Assembly: GCF_039634785.1 (NCBI RefSeq)
Contig: NZ_JBBIAB010000013.1
Location: 1-64,000 of the forward strand
From: Tistrella mobilis
GTDB taxonomy: Bacteria > Pseudomonadota > Alphaproteobacteria > Tistrellales > Tistrellaceae
Reading direction: 5' to 3'
Length of the DNA: 64,000 nt
Of the stretch, positions 27,971-38,098 are shown in pieces (positions within the stretch are counted from its first letter, which is position 1; each line of letters begins with the position of its first letter). Under the pieces are notes generated by a model. That model saw only the letters and a program-made list of their open reading frames with translations. It was not told the origin of the DNA and did no database searches. The translations under genes were made by a program, and so were the position numbers.

Positions 27971-29824
27971 ATGACCGATCCGATTGCCCTGTCACCGGCC
28001 GAGCTGATCCGGCGCGGCGCGGCGTTCAGCCGGGCCTGGCGGATGAAGGAGGCCTATGCCGATCTGACGGCGGCGCTGCGGCTGGCGCCCGATGATCCCG
28101 AGCTGCGCTATCAGATCGGCCGGCACCATATGCGCAACGGCCATGTCGAGATGGCGTTGATCGCCTTTCACGATCTGCGGCGCCGCGCGCCCGGCTACAG
28201 GGATGTGGCGGCGCGGTTCGAAACCTGTCTCGGCCGGCTGCGTTTCCCGCCGCCCTTCGACATCACCGCCGATCTGATCGCGGTGCTGGATGCGGGCCGG
28301 GCGGATGATCTGCAGATTGCCGGGGTCGTCACCCGGGTGCTGACCGGCCGCCACGGGATCGGTGCCGACATGGCGCTGGATGAGGCACGAATCGCCACCC
28401 TTGCCGGCAATCGGCTGTTTCGCCTGTATCTGCGGATCTGCCGCAACGTCGATCCGGCGATCGAGGCGGTGATGCGCCGCCTGCGCCGCCTGGCCGCGGG
28501 GCTTGAGCCCGGTCCCGCCCTGCCGCCGGGGCTGCTGGCGGATCTTGCCGTCGGTTTCGCCAATGGCGATTACGTGGTGGACCAGCCGGCCGACGAGGCG
28601 GCGGTGACAGACCGGCTGCGCGCCGGTCTGACGGGGGCGGAGGCCGTGGTGCCGGGGGCTGCCCCCGGCCCGGTGATGACCCTTGCGCTTTATGAGGCAC
28701 CGCCCGTCGCAGCAGTCGCGCAGATCCGATCCGCGGGGGCGGATGACGACGGTATCGCCGCCTTCATCGCCCGGTTCCACGACGAGCCCCTGGCACTGGC
28801 GGCCGAGCCGGTAGCAACGCTCGGGCATGCGGAGCCGGCGACCACGGATGCCGTGTCGGCGCGCGTCCGCAGCCAGTACGAAACCGCCCCCTATCCGCGC
28901 TGGCGCGGCGTGGCGTCGACCGGGATCACCGATTTCCCCGGCACCCTGGCCCGCGCCCTGCCCGTCGCGGCCCTGCCCGACAGCGTGACCGCCGCCATGC
29001 CTGCGCAGCCCGATGTGCTGATTGCCGGCTGCGGCACCGGCCGTCATCCCGCCAACCGGGCCAGCGCGACCACCTGCCGGTCTCTGCTCGCCATCGATAT
29101 CAGCCACAGCAGCCTTGCCTATGCCGCGGTCAAGGCGCGCGAGCTTGGCCTGGCCGACCGCATCCGCTTCGCCCGTGCCGATATCCTCGACCTGCCGGCG
29201 CTGCTGCCACCGGCCGGTTTCGACCTGATCGAGGCGGTGGGCGTGCTGCACCACATGGACGATCCATTCCGCGGCTGGCAGGTGCTGCGCGATCTGCTCC
29301 GCCCCGGCGGGTGGATGCGGATCGGGCTCTACAGCCGCACGGCGCGCCGCCACATCACCCGGGCGCGCGCCTGGCTGGCCGACCGGAACTGGGGCAAAAC
29401 CCCGGCCGATATCCGCCGCTTCCGGCGGGAGCTGGTCGCCGGCCGGCTGGATCCGGCGCTGGACCCGCTGAAGGACATCACCGACATCCACAACCTCCAC
29501 CATCTGCGCGACCTGTTGTTTCACGAACAGGAACTGACCTTCACGCCCGGGATGATCCGCGACCACCTCGACCGCCTGGGCCTCCGCTTTGCAGGGTTCA
29601 CCACCGGCCAGCCCGAAACCCTCCACGCCTATCGCCAGCGCTTCCCAGAAGACCCCACCGCCACCGATCTGGACCGCTGGGCCGCCTTCGAAGCCGATCA
29701 TCCGGATGCGTTTCTCGGGATGTATCAGTTCTGGTGTTATGACCCGCGGCAAAACGACATGATCACTGGCGAGAGTGCGGTCCGCATTCAAAGCAGCGGT
29801 AGATCGGTGCATCTTCCTGGGTGA
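27971..29824 (+). CDS. TPR-containing class I SAM methyltransferase
   Basis: A 617-aa protein. The N-terminal 110 residues form tetratricopeptide-like helices (LIRRGAAFSRAWRMKEAYADL, PDDPELRYQIGRHHMRNGHVEMAL). A long helical middle is followed by VRSQYETAPYPRW (about residue 300), a linker typical of this class. A Rossmann methyltransferase comes next (VLIAGCGTGRHPAN, LLAIDISHSSLAYA, LIEAVGVLHHMDDPF). The substrate is unknown. ATG 27971 is preferred over the earlier in-frame ATG at 27839 because the added 44 residues are Pro-rich low complexity and lie over the end of the preceding small gene. It sits between the NRPS genes and the RiPP locus and could serve either. The two oxygenases of the RiPP locus also carry helical-repeat N-termini, which hints at a link. 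Confidence 0.8.
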   Translation: MTDPIALSPAELIRRGAAFSRAWRMKEAYADLTAALRLAPDDPELRYQIGRHHMRNGHVEMALIAFHDLRRRAPGYRDVAARFETCLGRLRFPPPFDITADLIAVLDAGRADDLQIAGVVTRVLTGRHGIGADMALDEARIATLAGNRLFRLYLRICRNVDPAIEAVMRRLRRLAAGLEPGPALPPGLLADLAVGFANGDYVVDQPADEAAVTDRLRAGLTGAEAVVPGAAPGPVMTLALYEAPPVAAVAQIRSAGADDDGIAAFIARFHDEPLALAAEPVATLGHAEPATTDAVSARVRSQYETAPYPRWRGVASTGITDFPGTLARALPVAALPDSVTAAMPAQPDVLIAGCGTGRHPANRASATTCRSLLAIDISHSSLAYAAVKARELGLADRIRFARADILDLPALLPPAGFDLIEAVGVLHHMDDPFRGWQVLRDLLRPGGWMRIGLYSRTARRHITRARAWLADRNWGKTPADIRRFRRELVAGRLDPALDPLKDITDIHNLHHLRDLLFHEQELTFTPGMIRDHLDRLGLRFAGFTTGQPETLHAYRQRFPEDPTATDLDRWAAFEADHPDAFLGMYQFWCYDPRQNDMITGESAVRIQSSGRSVHLPG

Positions 29825-29874
29825 CGGATAAACTTTCAGAGTTTCATTTGGTTTAGAGAAATCATCTGTAGTTG

Positions 29875-29905
29875 TTGAGATGTATGATACGTGTCTTATT
29901 GGTTA
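29875..29905 (+). promoter_or_regulatory. Promoter-like element upstream of precursor 1
   Basis: TTGAGA at 29875, followed by an AT-rich stretch with ATACGT and CTTATT, 87 bases before the precursor start. The same succession (TTGACA, ATACGT, TTTTATT) occurs 83 bases before precursor 3, in the same order and nearly the same spacing. Promoter assignment is inferred from this conservation and from the drop in GC content. Confidence 0.5.
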
Positions 29906-29961
29906 GATATCGCCCTGCCGACTCGGCATACCATGGGATTGGTGCATTCAAACCGATGGAG

Positions 29962-30126
29962 ATGCCGATGTCCCTGTACCACCACGAGAGCACCGCCACC
30001 CAAGTCGAGGCCGATGCGCTTCGCCCTGCACGCAAGACCTGGCAGCAGCCGGTGCTGAGTATCGACGCCCTGCGTGACACGGCCGTCGGCGCGTTCTCCA
30101 ATGCCGACGGCAACATCGCTTCCTGA
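29962..30126 (+). CDS. Lasso-type RiPP precursor peptide 1
   Basis: A 54-aa peptide. The leader carries W27-Q-Q-P-V-L, matching the [Y/W]xxPxL motif that binds the PqqD-like recognition element in lasso systems. Thr40 would be the penultimate leader residue. The predicted core is VGAFSNADGNIAS (residues 42-54), with Asp at core position 8 as ring acceptor and the five-residue tail GNIAS. Start choice: ATG 29962 aligns with the start of precursor 3; ATG 29968 has GGAG at a better spacing (6 nt), so the peptide may lack the first two residues. It is nearly alignable over its length with precursor 3. The methylase gene lies downstream. No other gene overlaps it. Lasso-type identity is inferred from the leader and neighbours. 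Confidence 0.7.
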   Translation: MPMSLYHHESTATQVEADALRPARKTWQQPVLSIDALRDTAVGAFSNADGNIAS

Positions 30127-30214
30127 AACCTGCCCACGGGTCTTTCCGATCCGCCCGGGATTGCGGGCGCAACGGCCGGGTCCGCGTCCCGCTCGCGGGC
30201 CTGCCACCGCTGAC

Positions 30215-30380
30215 GATTGTCTGCGCTGCTGCCGGTCATGACCGCTTTACCGCGGCGGTGAACGCCGTGCGGTCAACCGCCGACCATGCGGGTGACGGAG
30301 CCGGAAACCGAGCCGGGGCAGCCCCTGTTCATCCGCCGCAGGAGCGGGGTGATACCGGCGGCGGCGGCGATGATGCTGCG
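30215..30380 (+). pseudogene. Decayed fragment of a LysR regulator gene
   Basis: This stretch aligns with codons about 8-65 of the intact LysR gene at 37187. Shared blocks include the words for FTAA and the run encoding GQPLFIRRRSGV, identical apart from a few changed bases. Frame breaks and substitutions destroy the reading frame, and the homology ends after about 165 bp. It lies the same distance behind precursor 1 as the intact regulator lies behind precursor 3, so a precursor-LysR unit was duplicated and this copy has decayed. The rest of the 30127-30655 gap shows nothing I can name. Confidence 0.75.
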
Positions 30381-30655
30381 GCCTTCACCCGTTGTGCCGG
30401 CCATTCCCGTCGGCATGGTGAGAGCACCATCAACACCCACCGTATCCAGGGTTGCAAAAGACCGCCATCTTCAGGAACTCGTCTCATCTGGTTCGCAATG
30501 GATCGGCATAATCGATATGTTGTGGACATGGACCATGCGGAGATCCGGGCGGGTCGAGGCGTACACAGCGACGCCCCCGCCCCTGCCTCACGCTGGAACA
30601 TGCCAACATGACAGACTCCAGCCTTGAACGGCCAGGTCACGGGAAGAGTTCGACA

Positions 30656-31660
30656 ATGACTGAGATGTCCAACATCGGCAGTTTGACGGTGGTTGGTAGC
30701 GGCATCACCGCGATTTCCCATATGACCGTGGAAGCCATCGGCCACATCCGGGAAGCGGATATCGTTCTGCATAATCTGCACGGCGTCGCCGCGACCCATC
30801 TGGCCACGCTCAACCCGAACTGTGTCGAGCTTGGGCATCTCTATGATGAAGGCAAGCCGCGTGCCGCAACATACGTTCAGATGGCCGAGTTGATCCTCCG
30901 CGAAGTTCGGGCCGGCCATCGTGTCGTCGCGGCTTTTTTCGGCCATCCGGCCTTTTTCAGCAAGGCGACACGCCGCGCGCTTTCGATCGCCGAAGCCGAG
31001 GGCGCCGCGGTGGCCATGATCCCCGGGATCAGTTCGATCGACACGCTGCTGGCCGACCTGCGCGTTCATATCAGTTCACAAGGGTGCCAGATTCTGTCGG
31101 CCCACGCGATCGTCTCCGGACGGCCCAACCTGGCCACCGACGGCCACCTGATCATCCTGATGCCCAGTTCCATCGGTCACGAGACCGGTCCGTCAAAGGC
31201 GGGATATGATCGCGCGCGACCGGAACATCTCTTCCAGCGATTGGCGGAAACCTATGGAGCCGATCATCCCTGCGTCATCTATACCGGTGCGGCGATCCCG
31301 TCCGAGTCTGCGATGGCGTGGCGACGCTCGCTCGGCGTCTGCGCCTCGCCGGAAGGCCTGCAAGACCTGCCCTCACAATGGACCCTCCATATTCCTCCCC
31401 GCGTCCCGGCCGGGGCGAACGCGCCGACTGCGTCCGGTCCGGACGAGGAGGCCGACGAGGAGGCACCCCGCCATGTCGAACACTACGGCCCCTTCGAAAG
31501 GGCGGCCATCGCGCAACTCGACCGTGACGGCACCGTGGGCCGCAAACCCCGGGTGGGTGGCAATGCTATGCTGCTGAAGATCATGACCAGGATCGCCGAA
31601 AGCCCGGCGTTTGCGGCAACGGTGCCCTGGCTGCGTCGGGGTTTCCGGCAGGGTGGCTGA
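30656..31660 (+). CDS. Borosin-type peptide backbone N-methyltransferase (tetrapyrrole methylase fold)
   Basis: A 334-aa protein of the tetrapyrrole/corrin methylase superfamily. Many positions match the fungal borosin enzyme OphMA and its bacterial relatives as I remember them: LTVVGSGITAISHMTVEAI (SAM-binding start), YDEGKPRAATYVQMAELIL with the Arg-x3-Tyr pair corresponding to R72/Y76, FFGHPAFFSKATRRAL, MIPGISSIDTLLADL, YTGAAIPSES, and the closing TLHIPPR. Classic borosins transfer methyl groups to backbone amides of a peptide. No core peptide is fused to its C-terminus, so a substrate in trans is expected; the adjacent precursors are the obvious candidates. The C-terminal 90 residues (YGPFERAAIAQLDRDG onward) are charged and could form the clasp region. 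ATG 30656 has AAGAG 7 nt upstream; an earlier ATG at 30608 is possible. Confidence 0.75.
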   Translation: MTEMSNIGSLTVVGSGITAISHMTVEAIGHIREADIVLHNLHGVAATHLATLNPNCVELGHLYDEGKPRAATYVQMAELILREVRAGHRVVAAFFGHPAFFSKATRRALSIAEAEGAAVAMIPGISSIDTLLADLRVHISSQGCQILSAHAIVSGRPNLATDGHLIILMPSSIGHETGPSKAGYDRARPEHLFQRLAETYGADHPCVIYTGAAIPSESAMAWRRSLGVCASPEGLQDLPSQWTLHIPPRVPAGANAPTASGPDEEADEEAPRHVEHYGPFERAAIAQLDRDGTVGRKPRVGGNAMLLKIMTRIAESPAFAATVPWLRRGFRQGG

Positions 31661-31662
31661 TC

Positions 31663-31968
31663 TCAGGCCGGCTGCGCCGATGAAACGTCCTGGGGCCGAA
31701 CGCCAATCAGGCCCTTTTCAGCCATACGGTCGAGCAATGCCAACACGTCCCGGCGAATGATATCGGGATCGGCATCGTATTCGGCGCTCAACGCCCGGCA
31801 CAACCCTTCCACCTCGGTGGGTTCGGCTATGCGGTTCCAAACGTCGGTTCCGATCGGGTCCAGGTTGTAATAGGCACCGTTTTCGGTACTCATCATCACC
31901 AGTTCGCCATCGATTTCCGACACGAACACTTCCTCGGCTTGAAAGACGTGAGAGTTCAGGGTCAACAT
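31663..31968 (-). CDS. PqqD-like RiPP recognition element (lasso B1)
   Basis: A 101-aa PqqD-fold protein. Diagnostic features are the first strands FVSEIDGELVMMSTENGAYYNLDPIGTDVW (beta-hairpin with the YYNLDxxGxxVW signature) and a helix with LDRMAEKGLI at the end. Such proteins hold the leader's YxxPxL motif and present it to the cyclase and protease. The start at 31968 has AAGGA 7 nt upstream; the longer open frame upstream is low-quality sequence. It is convergent with the methylase gene, with only two bases between the stops, and divergent from the cyclase gene across 355 bp. In most lasso clusters B1 is followed by a B2 protease; here it is not. Confidence 0.85.
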   Translation of the reverse strand: MLTLNSHVFQAEEVFVSEIDGELVMMSTENGAYYNLDPIGTDVWNRIAEPTEVEGLCRALSAEYDADPDIIRRDVLALLDRMAEKGLIGVRPQDVSSAQPA

Positions 31969-32030
31969 GGGCACATCCTTGTCCTGCGAGGCTTGCGGAG
32001 CGTAGCATGGTCCCGGATTAAATGGAAAGG

Positions 32031-32066
32031 CTCGGCTTTTGCCGGGAAACTCGGCTTTTGCCGGGA
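32031..32066. repeat. 17-bp direct repeat in the gap between B1 and cyclase
   Basis: CTCGGCTTTTGCCGGGA occurs at 32031-32047 and again at 32050-32066 (19-bp period). It lies upstream of both divergent genes in a 355-bp gap that otherwise shows no coding signal. It could be a regulatory site; nothing else in the gap is recognisable. Confidence 0.6.
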
Positions 32067-32323
32067 GACACTGGGCGCTCTCGCCTTTATGGCCTGACCA
32101 TCGGCCCGGCAGGGCGATGTCCGGATCACCGTCGAACCAGTCGTCCCCCCGGACACCGACATCGTCGACATCACGGAGACTTCGGTATGTATCATGATGG
32201 TGGCGCCCTGGGCGAGCCGGGGCCCGATCGGTGTGCCGCGCCCGCCTTGTCTGACGAGATCGACCGCCGGGCCGCCGTTGCCGAGGCGCGATGCCGAGCC
32301 GATGCCGCGGGCAGCGCGGTCCC

Positions 32324-34270
32324 ATGACGGGTATTTCCGGCCTTTGGTATCCTGATGGACGGCCGGGCGCAGCCGAAGACTGCGCCCGCATGCAGGCGGC
32401 ACTGGCGGTCTACGGACCGGACCGCTCCGGCCTCTGGGATGATGGCGATGTCGCGCTGGGCTGCCGGCTCAAACGCCTGCTGCCTGAAGATCGACTGGAC
32501 CGACAACCGGCGACCAGCGCCGACGGCCGCTTCGCCCTGGTGGCGGACGTGCGACTGGACAACCGGCCGGAACTGGCGGCGGAGCTGGGGATTTCCGCCG
32601 GGCGGCTGGCGGCGATGGCGGATTCGGCGCTGCTGCTGGCGGCCTGGGAGGCGTGGGGCGAGGCCGGTATCAACCGGCTGTATGGTGATTTCGCCTTCGC
32701 CGTGTGGGATGGACGCGCCCGCCGGTTATCCCTGGTGCGCGATTTTCCGGGCATGCGGCCGCTATTCCTCCACCAGGGGCGCGGCTGGATCGGCTTCGCG
32801 TCGATGGCCAAGGGCCTGCACGCCCTGCCCGACGTGCCGGTGGCGGCCGATCTGGAAACGCTGTGCCACTATCTGCTGGTCATGCCCAGGGCTGGAACCA
32901 ACAGCTTTTTCACCGGCATTCAGCGGGTCGAGCCCGGCCATATCACGGTCGTCGAGGCGGACGGGGCCGTCCGCTCGACCCCCTGGTGGCGACCGCCGGG
33001 GAAGCTGCCCGAACCCGCGGACCCGCGCGAGCTGGTCGAAACATTCCGCGCCACCTTCGACCGCGCGGTGGCAGACCGGCTGCGCGCGGTGGGGCCGGCC
33101 GCTTCGACGCTGAGCGCCGGGCTGGACAGTTCGGCCGTGACGGCAACCGCCGCCGAGCTGCTGGCGCCGTCCGGCCGGCGGCTCACCGCCTACACCCATG
33201 TGCCGCTTCCCGGCGTCCCGCTGGAGCAGAACCCGGGCCGGTTCGGGGATGAGGGGCCCTTGGCGCGCCTGCTGGCATCGCGTCACCCCAACATCGATCA
33301 TGTCGAGGTGGACGCGGCCGACCGGCATATCGGCGACGACCTGGACCGCCGCTTCTATTATGCGGAGGCGCCGGCGCTGAACCTTTGCAACACGCTTTGG
33401 ATTTCGGAGATCACGCGCCAGGCCGCCATGCGGGGCCAGACCGTGCTCCTGGTCGGGACTGCGGGCAACAAGACCATCAGCGCCGACGGATTGGAGAGGC
33501 TGAACGCGCTGCTTTATCGAGGACGGCTGATCGCCTGGGCGCGGGAGGCGGTGGCCCTGATGCGGGCGGGGGAAATCGGCATCAAGGGCCTGGGTTTCTG
33601 GAGCTTGAGGCCGCTGATGACCGGGGCCCTGGAAGAGCGGTTGAGTTCTCTGTTCGGCCGCCGGAACCTGAGCCTTCGGGACTATTCCCCCCTGCGTCCC
33701 GATCGTCTGGCGCGCTTTCTGGAGGACCGGCCGCCCGAGGCGCGGGGCGGCAACCGTGTCGTCGGGCGGAACGCGCTGGACCGCGTGCACCAGACGCTTC
33801 TGGTTTTCCCTCAACAGGAAGCGGTGACCCTCAGTCGGAAAGGGATGCTGGCCAGCCATGGCGTCGACCATCGCGACCCGACCGCCGATCGCCGGTTGAT
33901 CGAGCTGTCGCTGGCCCTGCCGGATTCGTTGCTGCTGCGGAACGGCCAGAAGAAATGGCTGTATCACCAGGTGTTTGCGGACCGCGTTCCCCCTGAAATC
34001 CGGCTCAACCGGCGCAAAGGCCTGACCGGGGCCGATTGGGCGGAACGACTGCTTCGCGCCCAGGCAAGCCTGCAAGGGGAACTCGACCGCGGGGCGGCCT
34101 GCGCCAACGCCCGGGACCTGCTCGACCTGGATGTGCTGACCACCCTGCCGGCCAGCTTGCCGGATCCCGCGACGGCCAGGGGGCCGGTCATGCACACCTA
34201 TCGATTGAGGATGCTGCGCGGCCTTTCAGCGGCTCATTTCCTGCGGCGCGTCGACGGGGGCAATCTCTGA
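32324..34270 (+). CDS. Asparagine-synthetase-like lasso cyclase
   Basis: A 648-aa protein of the AsnB/lasso macrolactam synthetase family. The N-terminal Ntn-like half starts MTGISGLWYPDGRP: position 2 is Thr, not the catalytic Cys of true asparagine synthetases, so glutaminase activity is lost. The synthetase half has the PP-loop TLSAGLDSSAVTATAAELL (about residue 265) that adenylates a side-chain carboxylate, here predicted to be Asp8/Asp9 of the precursor cores, for attack by the core N-terminus. A conserved C-terminal block (RKGMLASHGVDHRDPTADRRLIE, about 525) also fits. ATG 32324 is chosen because the MxGI start is the family N-terminus; the frame is open a little further up. It is divergent from the PqqD-like gene. 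Confidence 0.85.
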   Translation: MTGISGLWYPDGRPGAAEDCARMQAALAVYGPDRSGLWDDGDVALGCRLKRLLPEDRLDRQPATSADGRFALVADVRLDNRPELAAELGISAGRLAAMADSALLLAAWEAWGEAGINRLYGDFAFAVWDGRARRLSLVRDFPGMRPLFLHQGRGWIGFASMAKGLHALPDVPVAADLETLCHYLLVMPRAGTNSFFTGIQRVEPGHITVVEADGAVRSTPWWRPPGKLPEPADPRELVETFRATFDRAVADRLRAVGPAASTLSAGLDSSAVTATAAELLAPSGRRLTAYTHVPLPGVPLEQNPGRFGDEGPLARLLASRHPNIDHVEVDAADRHIGDDLDRRFYYAEAPALNLCNTLWISEITRQAAMRGQTVLLVGTAGNKTISADGLERLNALLYRGRLIAWAREAVALMRAGEIGIKGLGFWSLRPLMTGALEERLSSLFGRRNLSLRDYSPLRPDRLARFLEDRPPEARGGNRVVGRNALDRVHQTLLVFPQQEAVTLSRKGMLASHGVDHRDPTADRRLIELSLALPDSLLLRNGQKKWLYHQVFADRVPPEIRLNRRKGLTGADWAERLLRAQASLQGELDRGAACANARDLLDLDVLTTLPASLPDPATARGPVMHTYRLRMLRGLSAAHFLRRVDGGNL

Positions 34271-34285
34271 CGGCCCCGTCGGGCG

Positions 34286-35278
34286 TCACGGCTCGGCACA
34301 AACATCGATGGCGACGGCGATCCGCAGCCCCGGCTGTTTCAATGGCCTGGTCCAGTGCAGGGCGTAGGACGGCATCATCACCAGGCGCCCGGGAACCGGC
34401 GCAAATCTCAGCATCCGCCATCCCGGCGCCTCGGCGGGGATGAAATCATAGCGGCCGATATACAACGCCCCCTGATCTTCGCCAGGCGCCAGCGCCACCT
34501 CGGGCACCGCCGCATAGAAGACGCAGGTGATCCAGCCGCGGTGATGCTTGTGCGGAAGCGCGTGGCCGCCGTCGTGGGAGATCACGCTCCAGGTGTCGAG
34601 CCGATAGCGGGCGGGACCGGCGCCCATAGCGGCATGGACCTGCGCGCCAAGCTCGGCGCGGTAGCGATCGACCCGCTCCCGCACCGCCGTCATCAGGTCG
34701 GTGATCGCCGGTTCGGCGATCCGGTGGACATGGTCGATCCGGGTGCTGCTGAGGATGGCCTGATCACGTTCATGATAGGTGCCGGTGTCCAGCCGGTCCA
34801 GCAAGGCCCGGGCGACCGCGCCCGGATCCACGATGGTCCCGCCATCAGAACCGTCGGTCAGATCGTGACACCGGATAAAAGCGGGATCCAGGATCCGCCC
34901 CACTTCGTCGTAATCCCCCGCCCGCACCAGCAGAGCGAGATAGCGCTCCACCATCAGGCTGCCGACGCGGCCGCCGGCGAACAGTCCCCGGTACTCGTCC
35001 AGGGCCTTGTCCAGTTCATACCGATCGGCGGCGTCCCCGAAGGCGCCGTGGATCGACATGTCGGCACCATGCCGGAAGCCCAGAATCACCAGGCGTTCCG
35101 CCACCTCCGGCAAACCGGCGGCGGCCAGCATGCGGGCGTGTACAGCAACGGGAACGGCGTTCGCGCCGCCATCCCGTAAAATCCGGCCATAGGCGATCAA
35201 TCCGCCCTCGACATCGCCCCGGCGGCATCGCAGCAAAGCCTCGGCGGCAAGATGGTTGGCCGCCCCGCCATCAAGCAC
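34286..35278 (-). CDS. 2OG-Fe(II) oxygenase with helical-repeat N-terminus, copy 1
   Basis: A 330-aa protein. Residues 1-170 are alpha-helical repeats of TPR/SEL1 character. Residues about 235-330 are a 2OG-Fe(II) oxygenase domain of the Pfam 2OG-FeII_Oxy_5 kind: PHKHHRGWITCVFY (candidate iron ligands H243/H245), DQGALYIGRYD, then MPSYALHW (distal His308) and LRIAVAID (Arg319 for 2-oxoglutarate). It would hydroxylate or otherwise oxidise a peptide side chain; a 2OG enzyme hydroxylating Asp is known in the canucin lasso cluster. GTG 35278 follows GGGGAGG at 7 nt, which supports the start. It is convergent with the cyclase gene (16 bases) and downstream of precursor 2. It is a clear paralogue of the gene at 35666. 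Confidence 0.8.
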   Translation of the reverse strand: MLDGGAANHLAAEALLRCRRGDVEGGLIAYGRILRDGGANAVPVAVHARMLAAAGLPEVAERLVILGFRHGADMSIHGAFGDAADRYELDKALDEYRGLFAGGRVGSLMVERYLALLVRAGDYDEVGRILDPAFIRCHDLTDGSDGGTIVDPGAVARALLDRLDTGTYHERDQAILSSTRIDHVHRIAEPAITDLMTAVRERVDRYRAELGAQVHAAMGAGPARYRLDTWSVISHDGGHALPHKHHRGWITCVFYAAVPEVALAPGEDQGALYIGRYDFIPAEAPGWRMLRFAPVPGRLVMMPSYALHWTRPLKQPGLRIAVAIDVCAEP

Positions 35279-35342
35279 GGCGGCGCCTCCCCATCCCGGC
35301 CATTATGGCCCTCAGAACGGAACGGGCCATGGCGATGCGCTC

Positions 35343-35501
35343 TCAACTACCCAGGCAACAGTCGACAGCGCCACCCGCCTGCAACAAAGTCGCCTCAACC
35401 AGGTCGATATCACCAAGACGCGGTGCCGTCCAAGCCTTGCGCGGCAGCGTGGTTTGCTCATCCGAAGCGGTGACGTTCTGCTCCATCGGTTCTTTTGCCA
35501 T
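35343..35501 (-). CDS. Lasso-type RiPP precursor peptide 2
   Basis: A 52-aa peptide encoded between the two oxygenase genes and in their direction. The leader has W24-T-A-P-R-L and Thr38 at the predicted -2 position. The predicted core is LQAGGAVDCCLGS (13 residues), with Asp at core position 8 and tail CCLGS, which contains two adjacent cysteines. ATG 35501 is well supported by GAGGG eight bases upstream. The leader is diverged from precursors 1 and 3, but the spacing of W, P, L, T and D is the same. It is probably transcribed with the flanking oxygenases. A disulfide or thiol modification is possible but unproven. Confidence 0.7.
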   Translation of the reverse strand: MAKEPMEQNVTASDEQTTLPRKAWTAPRLGDIDLVEATLLQAGGAVDCCLGS

Positions 35502-35651
35502 CCCGAAAGCCCTCAAACACATTTCAAAGCCAGGCCCCATCCTAGTCTTCCGAAACGGGGCGAACAAGTCGCCCATGCCCACCGGTGGCCCGATCACCGG
35601 CGGCGACAGCGAAAATTCCCGACGCGTTCTGACGCCGTCCCGCGAAAATCC

Positions 35652-35679
35652 TCAGGGCTCAGGGCTCAGGGCTCAGGGC
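35652..35679. repeat. Four tandem copies of TCAGGGC at an oxygenase stop codon
   Basis: Four exact heptamers in a row. The stop codon of the oxygenase gene at 35666 lies inside the array, so slippage would change the last residues or move the stop. Confidence 0.8.
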
Positions 35680-36658
35680 AGATGTCGATGGCGACCGCAA
35701 TGCGCAGACCCGGCTGCTTCATGGGTTTGGTCCAATGCACGGCGTAGGACGGCATCATGACCAACTGGCCGGGGACGGGGGCCACCGCAATGGTCCGCCA
35801 ACCCGGCGCCTCGTCGGGAATGAAGTCATAACGACCGATGCACAAGGCCCCCTGGTCATCATCCGACATCAGCGCCTCGGCCGGCGCGGTGGGGTAAAAC
35901 ACGCAGGTAATCCACCCGTGGCTATGCTTATGGGGAACCGTATAACCATCGGTTTCGGATATCACGCACCAACTTTCCAATCTGAAACGCCGGGGTACGT
36001 TGGTCATGATGACATGGGCGTCCGACGGGAGGTCGGCGCGGTAACGCTCGACCCGCTCCCCCACCGCGCGCACCAGCGACGCGATGGCCGGATGCGGCAG
36101 CCGATCGACATGGTCGATGCGGGTGCTGTTGCGGATGGCCTGAAAGGTACCGCGATAGGCCCCGGACTCACGATGCTCCATCAAAACCCGCGTGATCTCG
36201 ACGGGGTCGACCACGGTGCCACCGTCACGGTCATCGGTCAGATCATGGCGACGGATCAGGGCGGGATCCAGAATGCGCCCCACCTCGGCGTACGCGCCGA
36301 CCTGCACCAGCAGGGCCAGATAGCGTTCCACCATCAGACTGTCGATGCGGCCCTGTGCGAAGAGCTGGCGATAATCCTCGATGACCTTCAACAGGTCGGT
36401 CTTCCCGAGGGCGCCTCCGAAGGCCCCGTAGATCGACATGTCGGCGCCCTTGCGCAGCCCCACAAGCGTCAGGCGCTCGGCAATCTCAGGGAAACCGGCG
36501 CTGGCCAGCATACGGGCGTGAAGGGCAACCGGCAGGACCCTCGCCCCGCCCTCCTGCAACACCTGGGCATAGGCGTCCAATCCACCCTCGACGTCACCAT
36601 GGCGGCACCGTGACAGGGCGTTTGCGGCACGCAAATTGGCGGACGCGGTGTCAAGCAT
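35666..36658 (-). CDS. 2OG-Fe(II) oxygenase with helical-repeat N-terminus, copy 2
   Basis: A 330-aa paralogue of the gene at 34286, the same length and alignable throughout. It has a helical N-terminal half (HARMLASAGFPEIAERLTLVGL), then PHKHSHGWITCVFY (H243/H245), DQGALCIGRYD, MPSYAVHW (H308) and LRIAVAID (R319). All candidate iron and 2-oxoglutarate ligands are kept in both copies, so neither looks dead. Between them sits precursor 2. Two divergent copies may act on different precursors or different residues. The start at 36658 (ATG) has only a weak Shine-Dalgarno. The stop lies in a heptamer repeat. Confidence 0.8.
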   Translation of the reverse strand: MLDTASANLRAANALSRCRHGDVEGGLDAYAQVLQEGGARVLPVALHARMLASAGFPEIAERLTLVGLRKGADMSIYGAFGGALGKTDLLKVIEDYRQLFAQGRIDSLMVERYLALLVQVGAYAEVGRILDPALIRRHDLTDDRDGGTVVDPVEITRVLMEHRESGAYRGTFQAIRNSTRIDHVDRLPHPAIASLVRAVGERVERYRADLPSDAHVIMTNVPRRFRLESWCVISETDGYTVPHKHSHGWITCVFYPTAPAEALMSDDDQGALCIGRYDFIPDEAPGWRTIAVAPVPGQLVMMPSYAVHWTKPMKQPGLRIAVAIDICPEP

Positions 36659-36853
36659 CAGGACATTCCACTTTGACCAGGATAGAGGCTCTCATACAAC
36701 CATTGCCGCGTGCCGATATCCAGGCGGTTGGTGCGCACGATATCGGCAACGGCACCTGTCCCGTCATTATTCGCCGCAGCAACGGCGTCATGGAGGCACA
36801 GACATCCCGGCCGGAACCCCCGTTCGGATCTCTATTTATAATAGAATTTATTT

Positions 36854-36882
36854 TTGACATAATCGTCATACGTTATTTTATT
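36854..36882 (+). promoter_or_regulatory. Sigma70-like promoter of precursor 3
   Basis: TTGACA at 36854-36859, a 17-bp spacer containing ATACGT, then TTTATT at 36877-36882, in a conspicuously AT-rich stretch of an otherwise GC-rich region. The element is conserved upstream of precursor 1 at a similar distance. Confidence 0.6.
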
Positions 36883-36936
36883 CAGACCGGACCCGTGATA
36901 CCACATATTTGATGAATTCAACGGTTGGAGAGAAAA

Positions 36937-37101
36937 ATGCCGATGTCCCCCGACTGCCACGAGAACGGCACCCCCACCAGGACCGGTCCCCTCCTCGCGG
37001 CACGCACGCCCTGGCAGCGGCCGGTACTGAACGTCGAAAACGTGGAAAGTACTGCACTCGCTCTTAGCGGCTCGCGCAACGACGGCGGCCGCCTCTCCTG
37101 A
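36937..37101 (+). CDS. Lasso-type RiPP precursor peptide 3
   Basis: A 54-aa peptide, a sister of precursor 1: the same MPMS start, W26-Q-R-P-V-L in the leader and Thr39 at the predicted -2 position. The predicted core is LALSGSRNDGGRLS (residues 41-54), with Asp at core position 9 and tail GGRLS. GGAG six bases before ATG 36937 gives a good ribosome site. Its promoter region is conserved with precursor 1, and it is followed after 85 bp by the LysR gene, as precursor 1 is followed by a decayed LysR fragment. Ring size would be nine residues here against eight in the other two. Confidence 0.7.
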   Translation: MPMSPDCHENGTPTRTGPLLAARTPWQRPVLNVENVESTALALSGSRNDGGRLS

Positions 37102-37141
37102 TCTCTGCTCTGCTGTACGCCCCCGCCCCGATGCCATAGAC

Positions 37142-37166
37142 TGATGCATTGACCTCTGATGCATCA
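37142..37166. promoter_or_regulatory. Putative LysR binding site
   Basis: TGATGCAT occurs at 37142 and 37157 (15-bp period); the second copy extends to the perfect palindrome TGATGCATCA. It lies 20-45 bp before the LysR start, where LysR-type regulators usually bind to control themselves and neighbours. Binding is inferred. Confidence 0.45.
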
Positions 37167-37186
37167 CTCATGGTGATCGGATCTCC

Positions 37187-38098
37187 ATGGACCTGCGCCA
37201 GCTGAAGATCTTCTGCGCCGTCGTCGATCACGGCAGTTTCACCGCGGCGGCAGAGGCCGTGCACACCGTGCAGTCCAACGTGACCATGCGGGTGAAGGAG
37301 CTGGAGGCCGAGCTGGGGCAGCCCTTGTTCATCCGCCGCAGGAGCGGGGTGATGCCGACGGCGGCGGGCGAGATTTTTCTCGGCTATGCGCGGCGCATCC
37401 TGCAGTTGACCGACGAGAGCCGGGCCGCCTTGCAGGATGGCGGCCGGCCTGCCGGCCCCTTGCGGCTGGGGGCGATGGAGACCACCGCCGCGATCCGCCT
37501 GCCCCGGCTGCTCGGCACATATCGCGCGCGCCATCCCGAGGTGCGGATGTCGCTCACCACCGGCACCACGGCCGAGCTGATCCGGGCGGTGGAAAGCTGC
37601 CAGCTGGACGGCGCCTTCATCGGCGGCCGGCATCAGCACCCGGCCCTGGTTCAGGAGGCGCTGTTCGACGAAGAGCTGGCGCTGATCAGCACCAGCGATA
37701 TCACATCGCGCGACGCCCTGCTCGACACCCTCCCCGATCAGACGGTGTTCGTCTTCCGGGCCGGCTGCTTCTACCGCTCCACGCTGGAAAGCTGGTTCCA
37801 TCAGGCCGGGCTGGTCCCGGGGCAGGTCATGGAAATGGGCACGCTGGACGGCATTCTGTCCTGCGTCGCCGCGGGCATGGGCATCACCCTGCTGCCGGCA
37901 TCCGTGGCCCGCAACGCCAGCCTGGCCGATGCGCTGCACTGCCATGCCCTGCCGGCAGGCGTGGCCACCGTCACCACGGTTTTCATCCGCCGGCGCGACA
38001 GCCTGCCGGGTGCGGCGCTGAAGGCCTTCATGGCACTCGCCCGGGCGACGTTCCAGCCATCGCCGCTTCGGCCGCCGCAGCCGGCAGACCCTGAATGA
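37187..38098 (+). CDS. LysR-family transcriptional regulator
   Basis: A 303-aa regulator. It has an N-terminal winged HTH (MDLRQLKIFCAVVDHGSFTAAAEAVHTVQSNVTMRVKELEAELGQPLF) and an effector domain from about residue 88 (PLRLGAMETTAAIRLPRLLGTYRARHPEV). It most resembles LysR proteins of general-purpose or efflux-control type; the ligand is unknown. Being 85 bp behind precursor 3, with a decayed copy behind precursor 1, it is a good candidate regulator of the RiPP locus. Its 3' end overlaps the convergent nitronate monooxygenase gene by about 70 bases. Confidence 0.88.
   Translation: MDLRQLKIFCAVVDHGSFTAAAEAVHTVQSNVTMRVKELEAELGQPLFIRRRSGVMPTAAGEIFLGYARRILQLTDESRAALQDGGRPAGPLRLGAMETTAAIRLPRLLGTYRARHPEVRMSLTTGTTAELIRAVESCQLDGAFIGGRHQHPALVQEALFDEELALISTSDITSRDALLDTLPDQTVFVFRAGCFYRSTLESWFHQAGLVPGQVMEMGTLDGILSCVAAGMGITLLPASVARNASLADALHCHALPAGVATVTTVFIRRRDSLPGAALKAFMALARATFQPSPLRPPQPADPE

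Follow-up and report, generated by a model that had tools for sequence, protein, structure and literature searches.

Lasso peptides are usually found by seeking their precursors beside their enzymes. The leaders of these precursors carry a YxxPxL motif (PMC10368454) and a conserved threonine two residues before the core, Thr(-2) (PMC10368454; PMC12670498), and the C-terminal serine, which known lasso kinases phosphorylate, is conserved in precursors whose clusters encode a homologous kinase (PMC9266682). For core position 1, Asn was called a first in 2025, the earlier examples being Gly, Cys, Ser and Ala, in a list worded “such as”, possibly incomplete, of what is a common but not strictly defining feature (PMC12670498); the peptide called the shortest lasso is huascopeptin (PMC7549694), with 13 residues and a 7-residue ring (PMC12427821). 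We compare with these systems three small open reading frames (ORFs), named here A1, A2 and A3, in a 64,000-nucleotide stretch of Tistrella mobilis DNA (contig NZ_JBBIAB010000013.1, positions 1 to 64,000), hereafter the window. They are probably lasso-type precursors whose cores, at 13-14 residues, are unusually short, and they would form one node of a genus-wide system.

The three ORFs follow a single plan. A1 (29962-30126, + strand, 54 amino acids (aa)) ends in the core VGAFSNADGNIAS (30085-30123; ring VGAFSNAD, tail GNIAS); A2 (35343-35501, - strand, 52 aa, starting at the ATG at 35501 or at an in-frame ATG further in, at 35486) in LQAGGAVDCCLGS (35346-35384; ring LQAGGAVD, tail CCLGS); and A3 (36937-37101, + strand, 54 aa) in LALSGSRNDGGRLS (37057-37098; ring LALSGSRND, tail GGRLS). 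Each leader carries what appears to be an aromatic variant of the lasso motif, W-x-x-P-x-L, with Trp replacing Tyr, and a Thr stands as residue 8 (A1), 9 (A2) or 8 (A3) past this box, one residue before the core. With the parse that places the acid at core position 8 (A1, A2) or 9 (A3), inside the 7-9 interval where lasso peptides have their Asp or Glu, this Thr falls at leader -2 and the cut is predicted one residue later. The cores start with Val, Leu and Leu, respectively, outside the examples of PMC12670498, and none of the three tails holds an aromatic residue. The initial annotation of the window had read A1-A3 as lasso-type precursors with this Thr parse, an Asp at 8, 8 and 9 and exactly five further residues ending in Ser; all of this holds, as does its remark that Val and Leu starts are unusual for lasso peptides. 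Its insistence on the short tails was also justified, their shortness being real and extreme when set against huascopeptin, the shortest lasso in the reviews. It mentions neither the lack of a protease nearby nor the gene for a backbone N-methyltransferase nor the relatives at scattered loci. It had also presented the strict geometry as a trait common to the three; the geometry is indeed there in all of them, but it is not peculiar to them, being general in the genus Tistrella.

We established this by comparing three Tistrella genomes: that of the window (G000), that of T. mobilis KA081020-065 (G162), which carries the plasmid pTM1, and a third one (G001). A profile built from six precursors found many more across them, and ORFs were then scanned in 28 fetched loci (549,024 bases; 13 loci from G000, 10 from G162 and 5 from G001) for a W..P.[LIVFM] box in a suitable position followed by T-x, an acid at core position 7-9 and 3-12 residues of tail. 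The box is present in 96 ORFs, 45 of which also have the T-x, the ring acid and the tail, and all 45 end in Ser; this number is not a genome-wide rate, because most loci were fetched for a match to the precursor profile, to the cyclase or to the B1 and B2 proteins described below. Four dinucleotide shuffles of the same DNA gave 49-59 boxes, of which 0-2 came with a ring acid and none with both a ring acid and a terminal Ser. When the acid is not required, the box, a Thr 7-9 residues on and a terminal Ser again designate 45 ORFs, with Asp or Glu at core position 8 or 9 in 45/45, a count that is not fully independent because the profile used to choose loci includes an Asp column. Rings are of 8 residues in 38 cores and of 9 in seven (ring 8 being preferred when two parses fit), and Gly opens nine of the 45 cores, the remaining 36 starting with Phe (7), Leu (6), Val (5), Ala (5), Ile (4), Glu (3), Asn (3), Thr (2) or Ser (1). 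Four further precursors from additional loci bring the family to 49. Two of the 18 cores of the window genome are identical, no core is common to different strains, and the three genomes have 11, 16 and 7 distinct cores at the fetched loci without core enzymes. In the T. mobilis plasmid record, the precursors that we looked at are hypothetical proteins or are absent from the incomplete gene table of PLSDB. A large family of quickly changing precursor relatives is dispersed over the genomes of the genus, and enzymes that are shared and encoded elsewhere apparently mature them.

Tail length bears directly on the shape of the product. Among the 45 cores, tails count 5 residues in 19 cases, 6 in 19, 7 in four, and 8, 9 and 10 in one each. 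With 38/45 tails at 5-6 residues, no aromatic residue in the window tails, and the shortest lasso named in the reviews having 13 residues with a ring of only 7, the cyclase might close the 8- or 9-residue ring and the five-residue tail never be held through it, giving unthreaded branched-cyclic (lariat) products; we put this at a little under an even chance. Against it, the C-terminal Ser could bear a stopper, as kinase, nucleotidyltransferase, sulfotransferase and O-acyltransferase genes adjoin several precursor loci, and nine precursors of the same plan, found at 5 of the 11 loci scanned in other alphaproteobacteria, have longer tails, of 7-11 residues. That count took only ORFs with T(-2), an acid at 7-9 and a terminal Ser; the candidates of two loci (L040 and L045) misfit this parse and were excluded. 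One alphaproteobacterium (G095) carries lasso-type precursors at several loci (L164-L166), most of them with a local B1 or cyclase, and two of its precursors have five-residue tails as well.

The genes around the short-tail precursors would suit such a stopper. A short-tail pair of pTM1 adjoins genes annotated as HPr(Ser) kinase, nucleotidyltransferase and two sulfotransferases, and another short-tail array adjoins a sulfotransferase. In all three strains, short-tail arrays alternate with DUF5989 genes or lie next to them, and SGNH-MBOAT-SGNH genes of the O-acyltransferase type follow (L098, contig C2 of the window genome; L108, pTM1 at about 467-473 kb; L115, C2 of G001). Around one further precursor (L109), no such tailoring gene was seen within the annotated stretch. 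Many precursor loci without core enzymes would then bring their own tailoring, which perhaps supplies the stopper that the short tail lacks. A1-A3 are best filed as a new, short-tailed variant of lasso-type precursors, which may belong to the threaded lassos.

The enzymes expected for such precursors are partly present in the window. Between A1 and A3 lie a PqqD-type recognition protein (31663-31968, - strand, 101 aa; PF05402 at 75 bits, cut-off 23.4), corresponding to the lasso B1 or RiPP (ribosomally synthesized and post-translationally modified peptide) recognition element (RRE), and an asparagine-synthetase-like lasso cyclase homologue (32324-34270, + strand, 648 aa; PF00733 at 99.6 bits) with the ATP-binding motif SAGLDS at residue 264. 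They are accompanied by two 2-oxoglutarate (2OG)-Fe(II) oxygenases of 330 aa each and 62% identical to one another, OX1 (34286-35278, - strand, GTG start; PF13759 at 43.4 bits) and OX2 (35666-36658, - strand; 47.9 bits, cut-off 27 for both). The B2 transglutaminase-like protease (lasso_biosyn_B2 at 73.6 bits, cut-off 33) is encoded on a different contig: each of the three genomes has a single NF033537 match above the cut-off (search E 0.01), on contig C29 in the window genome and on replicon C3 in T. mobilis KA081020-065, and its Cys and His are retained in all seven aligned B2 proteins. Contig C29 gave no match to B1 or the cyclase, no lasso-type precursor was found around its B2, and in T. 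mobilis KA081020-065, 17/19 scanned precursors sit on replicons other than C3. All three genomes have a further lasso-cyclase-like gene whose identity to the window cyclase is 41-42%; in G000 it lies at positions 294213-296171 of contig C3 (L033), where the surrounding 18 kb gave no B1, B2 or precursor, and it is a candidate for a cyclase acting in trans. A graspetide was also considered and set aside, as none of the ten window proteins run against Pfam (27971-38098) matched ATP-grasp.

By analogy with established lasso biosynthesis, the PqqD-type B1 would bind the W-x-x-P-x-L motif of the leader; the single genome-encoded B2, a cysteine protease on another contig, would cut after Thr(-2)-x, a site supported by the relatives in which Gly directly follows T-x; and the cyclase would adenylate Asp8 (Asp9 in A3) and join it to the new N-terminal amine. 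The product would be a macrolactam of 8 or 9 residues, from which five more residues, the last one Ser, extend as a tail. Hydroxylation of the precursor by the two 2OG oxygenases and N-methylation of its backbone by the OphMA-like enzyme described below are possible further steps. Across the genus, the system would consist of 7-16 distinct hypervariable cores per genome at the fetched loci without core enzymes, a small number of loci carrying B1 and a cyclase, and one B2.

The history of the site was read from the other strains. The block of the methyltransferase, B1, cyclase homologue, two oxygenases and A2 (30354-36768, genes on both strands) is absent at the same site of pTM1; there, the counterparts of 30353 and 36769 share an overlap of 23 bases, and copies of a LysR gene fragment form the junction between the two flanks. 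A LysR-type regulator (37187-38098, + strand; PF03466 at 155.8 bits) adjoins A3 and occupies the same site in both other strains; because a truncated copy of a LysR gene start lies at 30197-30367 (+ strand, 77% identity to 37189-37367), a duplicated precursor-LysR unit is suggested. G001 lacks the precursors here as well; therefore, the site has gained or lost both precursors and block. Third-position guanine-cytosine content is 0.74 in the methyltransferase and 0.71 in B1, versus 0.82-0.89 in the genes flanking the cluster. Directly upstream, 8499-29824 holds an apparent 5201-aa protein of the nonribosomal peptide synthetase/polyketide synthase (NRPS/PKS) type, a second NRPS and a TPR-methyltransferase, the NRPS/PKS assignment being read from translation only.

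Both flanking precursors have orthologs in pTM1 with rewritten cores, AAPYTVSDGTIAS for A1 (annotated as hypothetical protein TMO_RS31730) and GTFSGSIFDGSFTS for A3. Acid position, tail length and Ser are unchanged in both; in A3, the leader is identical from its Trp up to the core, while 8/14 core residues differ. When A1 and A3 are pooled, the proportions of nonsynonymous (pN) and synonymous (pS) differences are 0.40 and 0.11 in the core (Fisher p 0.013), a ratio above 1 that is shown for these two window pairs only, because a pool of 12 pairs, chosen for equal length and ring size, gives a core pN/pS of 0.77 (leader 0.50). The pooled leader of A1 and A3 (40 codons) has a pN of 0.06 and a pS of 0.04, so that nonsynonymous change separates core from leader (p 1e-9), whereas the synonymous difference is not significant (p 0.29).

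Precursors fall into two classes according to their neighbors. Where B1 or a cyclase is found at the locus, outside the window, Gly starts 9/11 cores and 3/11 have a tail of at most 6; where neither is found, the figures are 4/35 and 33/35 (Fisher p about 3e-5 for each difference). A locus without enzymes was defined by the lack of any tblastn match to the cyclase, B1 or B2 at E 1e-3 (13 loci, 16-20 kb each) and of any PF05402 match within 30 kb in a whole-genome search; 33 of the 39 precursors with tails of at most 6 sit at loci free of B1, B2 and cyclase. A1-A3 belong to the short-tail, non-Gly class and yet stand alongside B1 and the cyclase homologue, the window being the one place seen where three such precursors meet presumed enzymes; there is one further case of this kind (L034), with a Val start and a tail of six. 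Given this split, and given that pTM1 has orthologs of A1 and A3 without the block and without local B1, B2 or cyclase, A1 and A3 might be substrates of a different, remote pathway, with the block and A2 lying between them by chance. We think this less likely than not: A2, from within the block, follows the same geometry, with Leu at its start and five residues in its tail, and pTM1 also encodes a 2OG-Fe(II) oxygenase at a distance of 2.7 kb from its A3 ortholog.

One has nevertheless to set several points against A1-A3 being lasso-type precursors served by these enzymes. B1 scores 79.4 bits with the lasso model NF033536 (lasso_PqqD_Bac), 0.6 bits short of its cut-off of 80; the best NCBIfam match of the cyclase homologue is indeed NF033535 (lasso cyclase), at 251.7 bits for a cut-off of 525; and a B2 in the window is ruled out, as the genome-wide search gave only the C29 copy. 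In the family at large, the first residue of 30/49 cores is none of Gly, Ala, Ser and Cys, position 7 bears an additional acid in 5/45, the choice of loci relied in part on a profile containing the Asp column, and the core ratio of the 12-pair pool stays below 1. Finally, outside the window hardly anything links the short non-Gly class to local enzymes, because the two classes part there, and the window is itself the weak point of the argument, because A1 and A3 persist in pTM1 although the block is missing; of the three precursors, A2 alone lies within the block, and the other two may have been bystanders when it was inserted.

The methyltransferase of the block adds a question of its own. 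It is an OphMA-like peptide-backbone N-methyltransferase of the borosin type (30656-31660, + strand, 334 aa; tetrapyrrole-methylase family, PF00590 at 75.3 bits, cut-off 27.8), whose residues 5-331 align with OphMA 6-348 at E 1.3e-46; its ORF stops inside the clasp region and has no fused core. Identity as a cobalamin or siroheme methyltransferase was rejected, those NCBIfam models scoring far under their cut-offs and OphMA matching far better. A structure prediction from three sequences (mean predicted local distance difference test, pLDDT, of 57.9) was too poor and was not used. A match at E 1e-15 or better occurs in 3/385 sampled alphaproteobacterial genomes, the window genome included. A scan of the genome collection for relatives used two short patterns and reaches only close ones; of 16 plasmid matches, three were examined. 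At 14 loci of relatives (13 distinct, L043 and L123 being the same place; flanks of limited length), tblastn found no cyclase, B1, B2 or window-type oxygenase, and the same queries gave matches at three control loci. Fused borosin-type methyltransferases with long tandem-repeat tails are encoded in Niveispirillum, Azospirillum and Aerophototrophica (L118, L120, L123 and L124).

An OphMA-like N-methyltransferase without a fused core inside a lasso-type cluster is unusual; it could act on the lasso-type precursors, need another partner, or be a remnant. The last possibility, that the gene is what is left of a fused borosin gene after loss of its core and is without function in the cluster, we hold to be slightly less probable than its opposite. 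The protein ends in the clasp, earlier than its relatives in the three genera just named, which extend through an additional stretch of clasp to repetitive tails; neither of the other two Tistrella genomes gave a match at E 1e-15; and a search of the genome for a separate borosin-binding domain gave a best E of 0.30, in a weak test where the window's own stub scored 0.98. When residues are matched to SonM by spacing, via the OphMA alignment and not by a direct one, Gly60 and Phe95 take the places of SonM Y58 and Y93, but R69 and Y73 keep the equivalents of SonM R67 and Y71 (mutant data in PMC8429565). The ORF, moreover, is intact and 43-45% identical to its two best relatives.

At six other loci (L102, L104, L040, L045, L050 and L051), one to three phage tail-collar-like proteins lie beside lasso-type precursors or cyclases, an assignment made by Pfam (Collar) for two L104 proteins and judged from N-terminal sequences for the rest.

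Most short-tail Tistrella precursors would escape searches among the neighbors of enzymes. If they are matured, they would lower the known limit of tail length, loosen what is required of the first ring residue and provide a case of core enzymes that act in trans on many precursors, their variable cores on a fixed scaffold amounting to a natural library. The presence of a backbone N-methyltransferase gene in a lasso-type cluster makes an in vivo union of N-methylation and lariat formation testable; in vitro, the microcin J25 loop tolerates up to two backbone N-methylations (PMC13352647). Among the titles listed by searches of the open-access literature, none is on a lasso cluster with such a methyltransferase or layout, and the main text of the review PMC9266682 contains neither “N-methyl” nor “sulfotransferase”.

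The hub-and-spoke layout of precursors and enzymes is unusual. Prochlorosins have a conserved leader, hypervariable cores and precursors away from the enzyme, as in Tistrella, but are lanthipeptides, so that enzyme and bond differ from the lasso type. A distributed, prochlorosin-like lasso factory, with one B2 and a few B1/cyclase pairs serving many hypervariable precursors across replicons, locus-borne tailoring genes for kinase and nucleotidyltransferase, sulfotransferase, O-acyltransferase or 2OG oxygenase, the shortest-tailed lassos known carrying a tailored Ser stopper, and a borosin-type enzyme in the window making the first natural backbone N-methylated lassos, is a speculation to which we give little credence in this full form. 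With paeninodin, ThcoA/SyanA and pseudomycoidin, the Tistrella system shares the aromatic-x-x-P-x-L motif, Thr(-2), Asp or Glu at 7-9, a split B1/B2 and the C-terminal Ser (PMC10368454; PMC9266682); unlike them, it has cores of 13-14 residues, five-residue tails and non-Gly starts, its B2 is on another contig or replicon, and most of its short-tail precursors lie apart from the core enzymes. Like canucin, whose CanE works on the linear precursor with the help of B1, the window has an Fe/2OG oxygenase gene in the cluster (PMC9266682), but in the form of two paralogous PF13759 genes. With the borosins OphMA (fused) and SonM/SonA (split) and with the fused, repeat-tailed proteins of Niveispirillum and Azospirillum, it shares the methyltransferase domain and part of the clasp; unlike them, the window enzyme comes with neither a fused core nor a recognisable borosin-binding precursor, and it sits with lasso-type genes.

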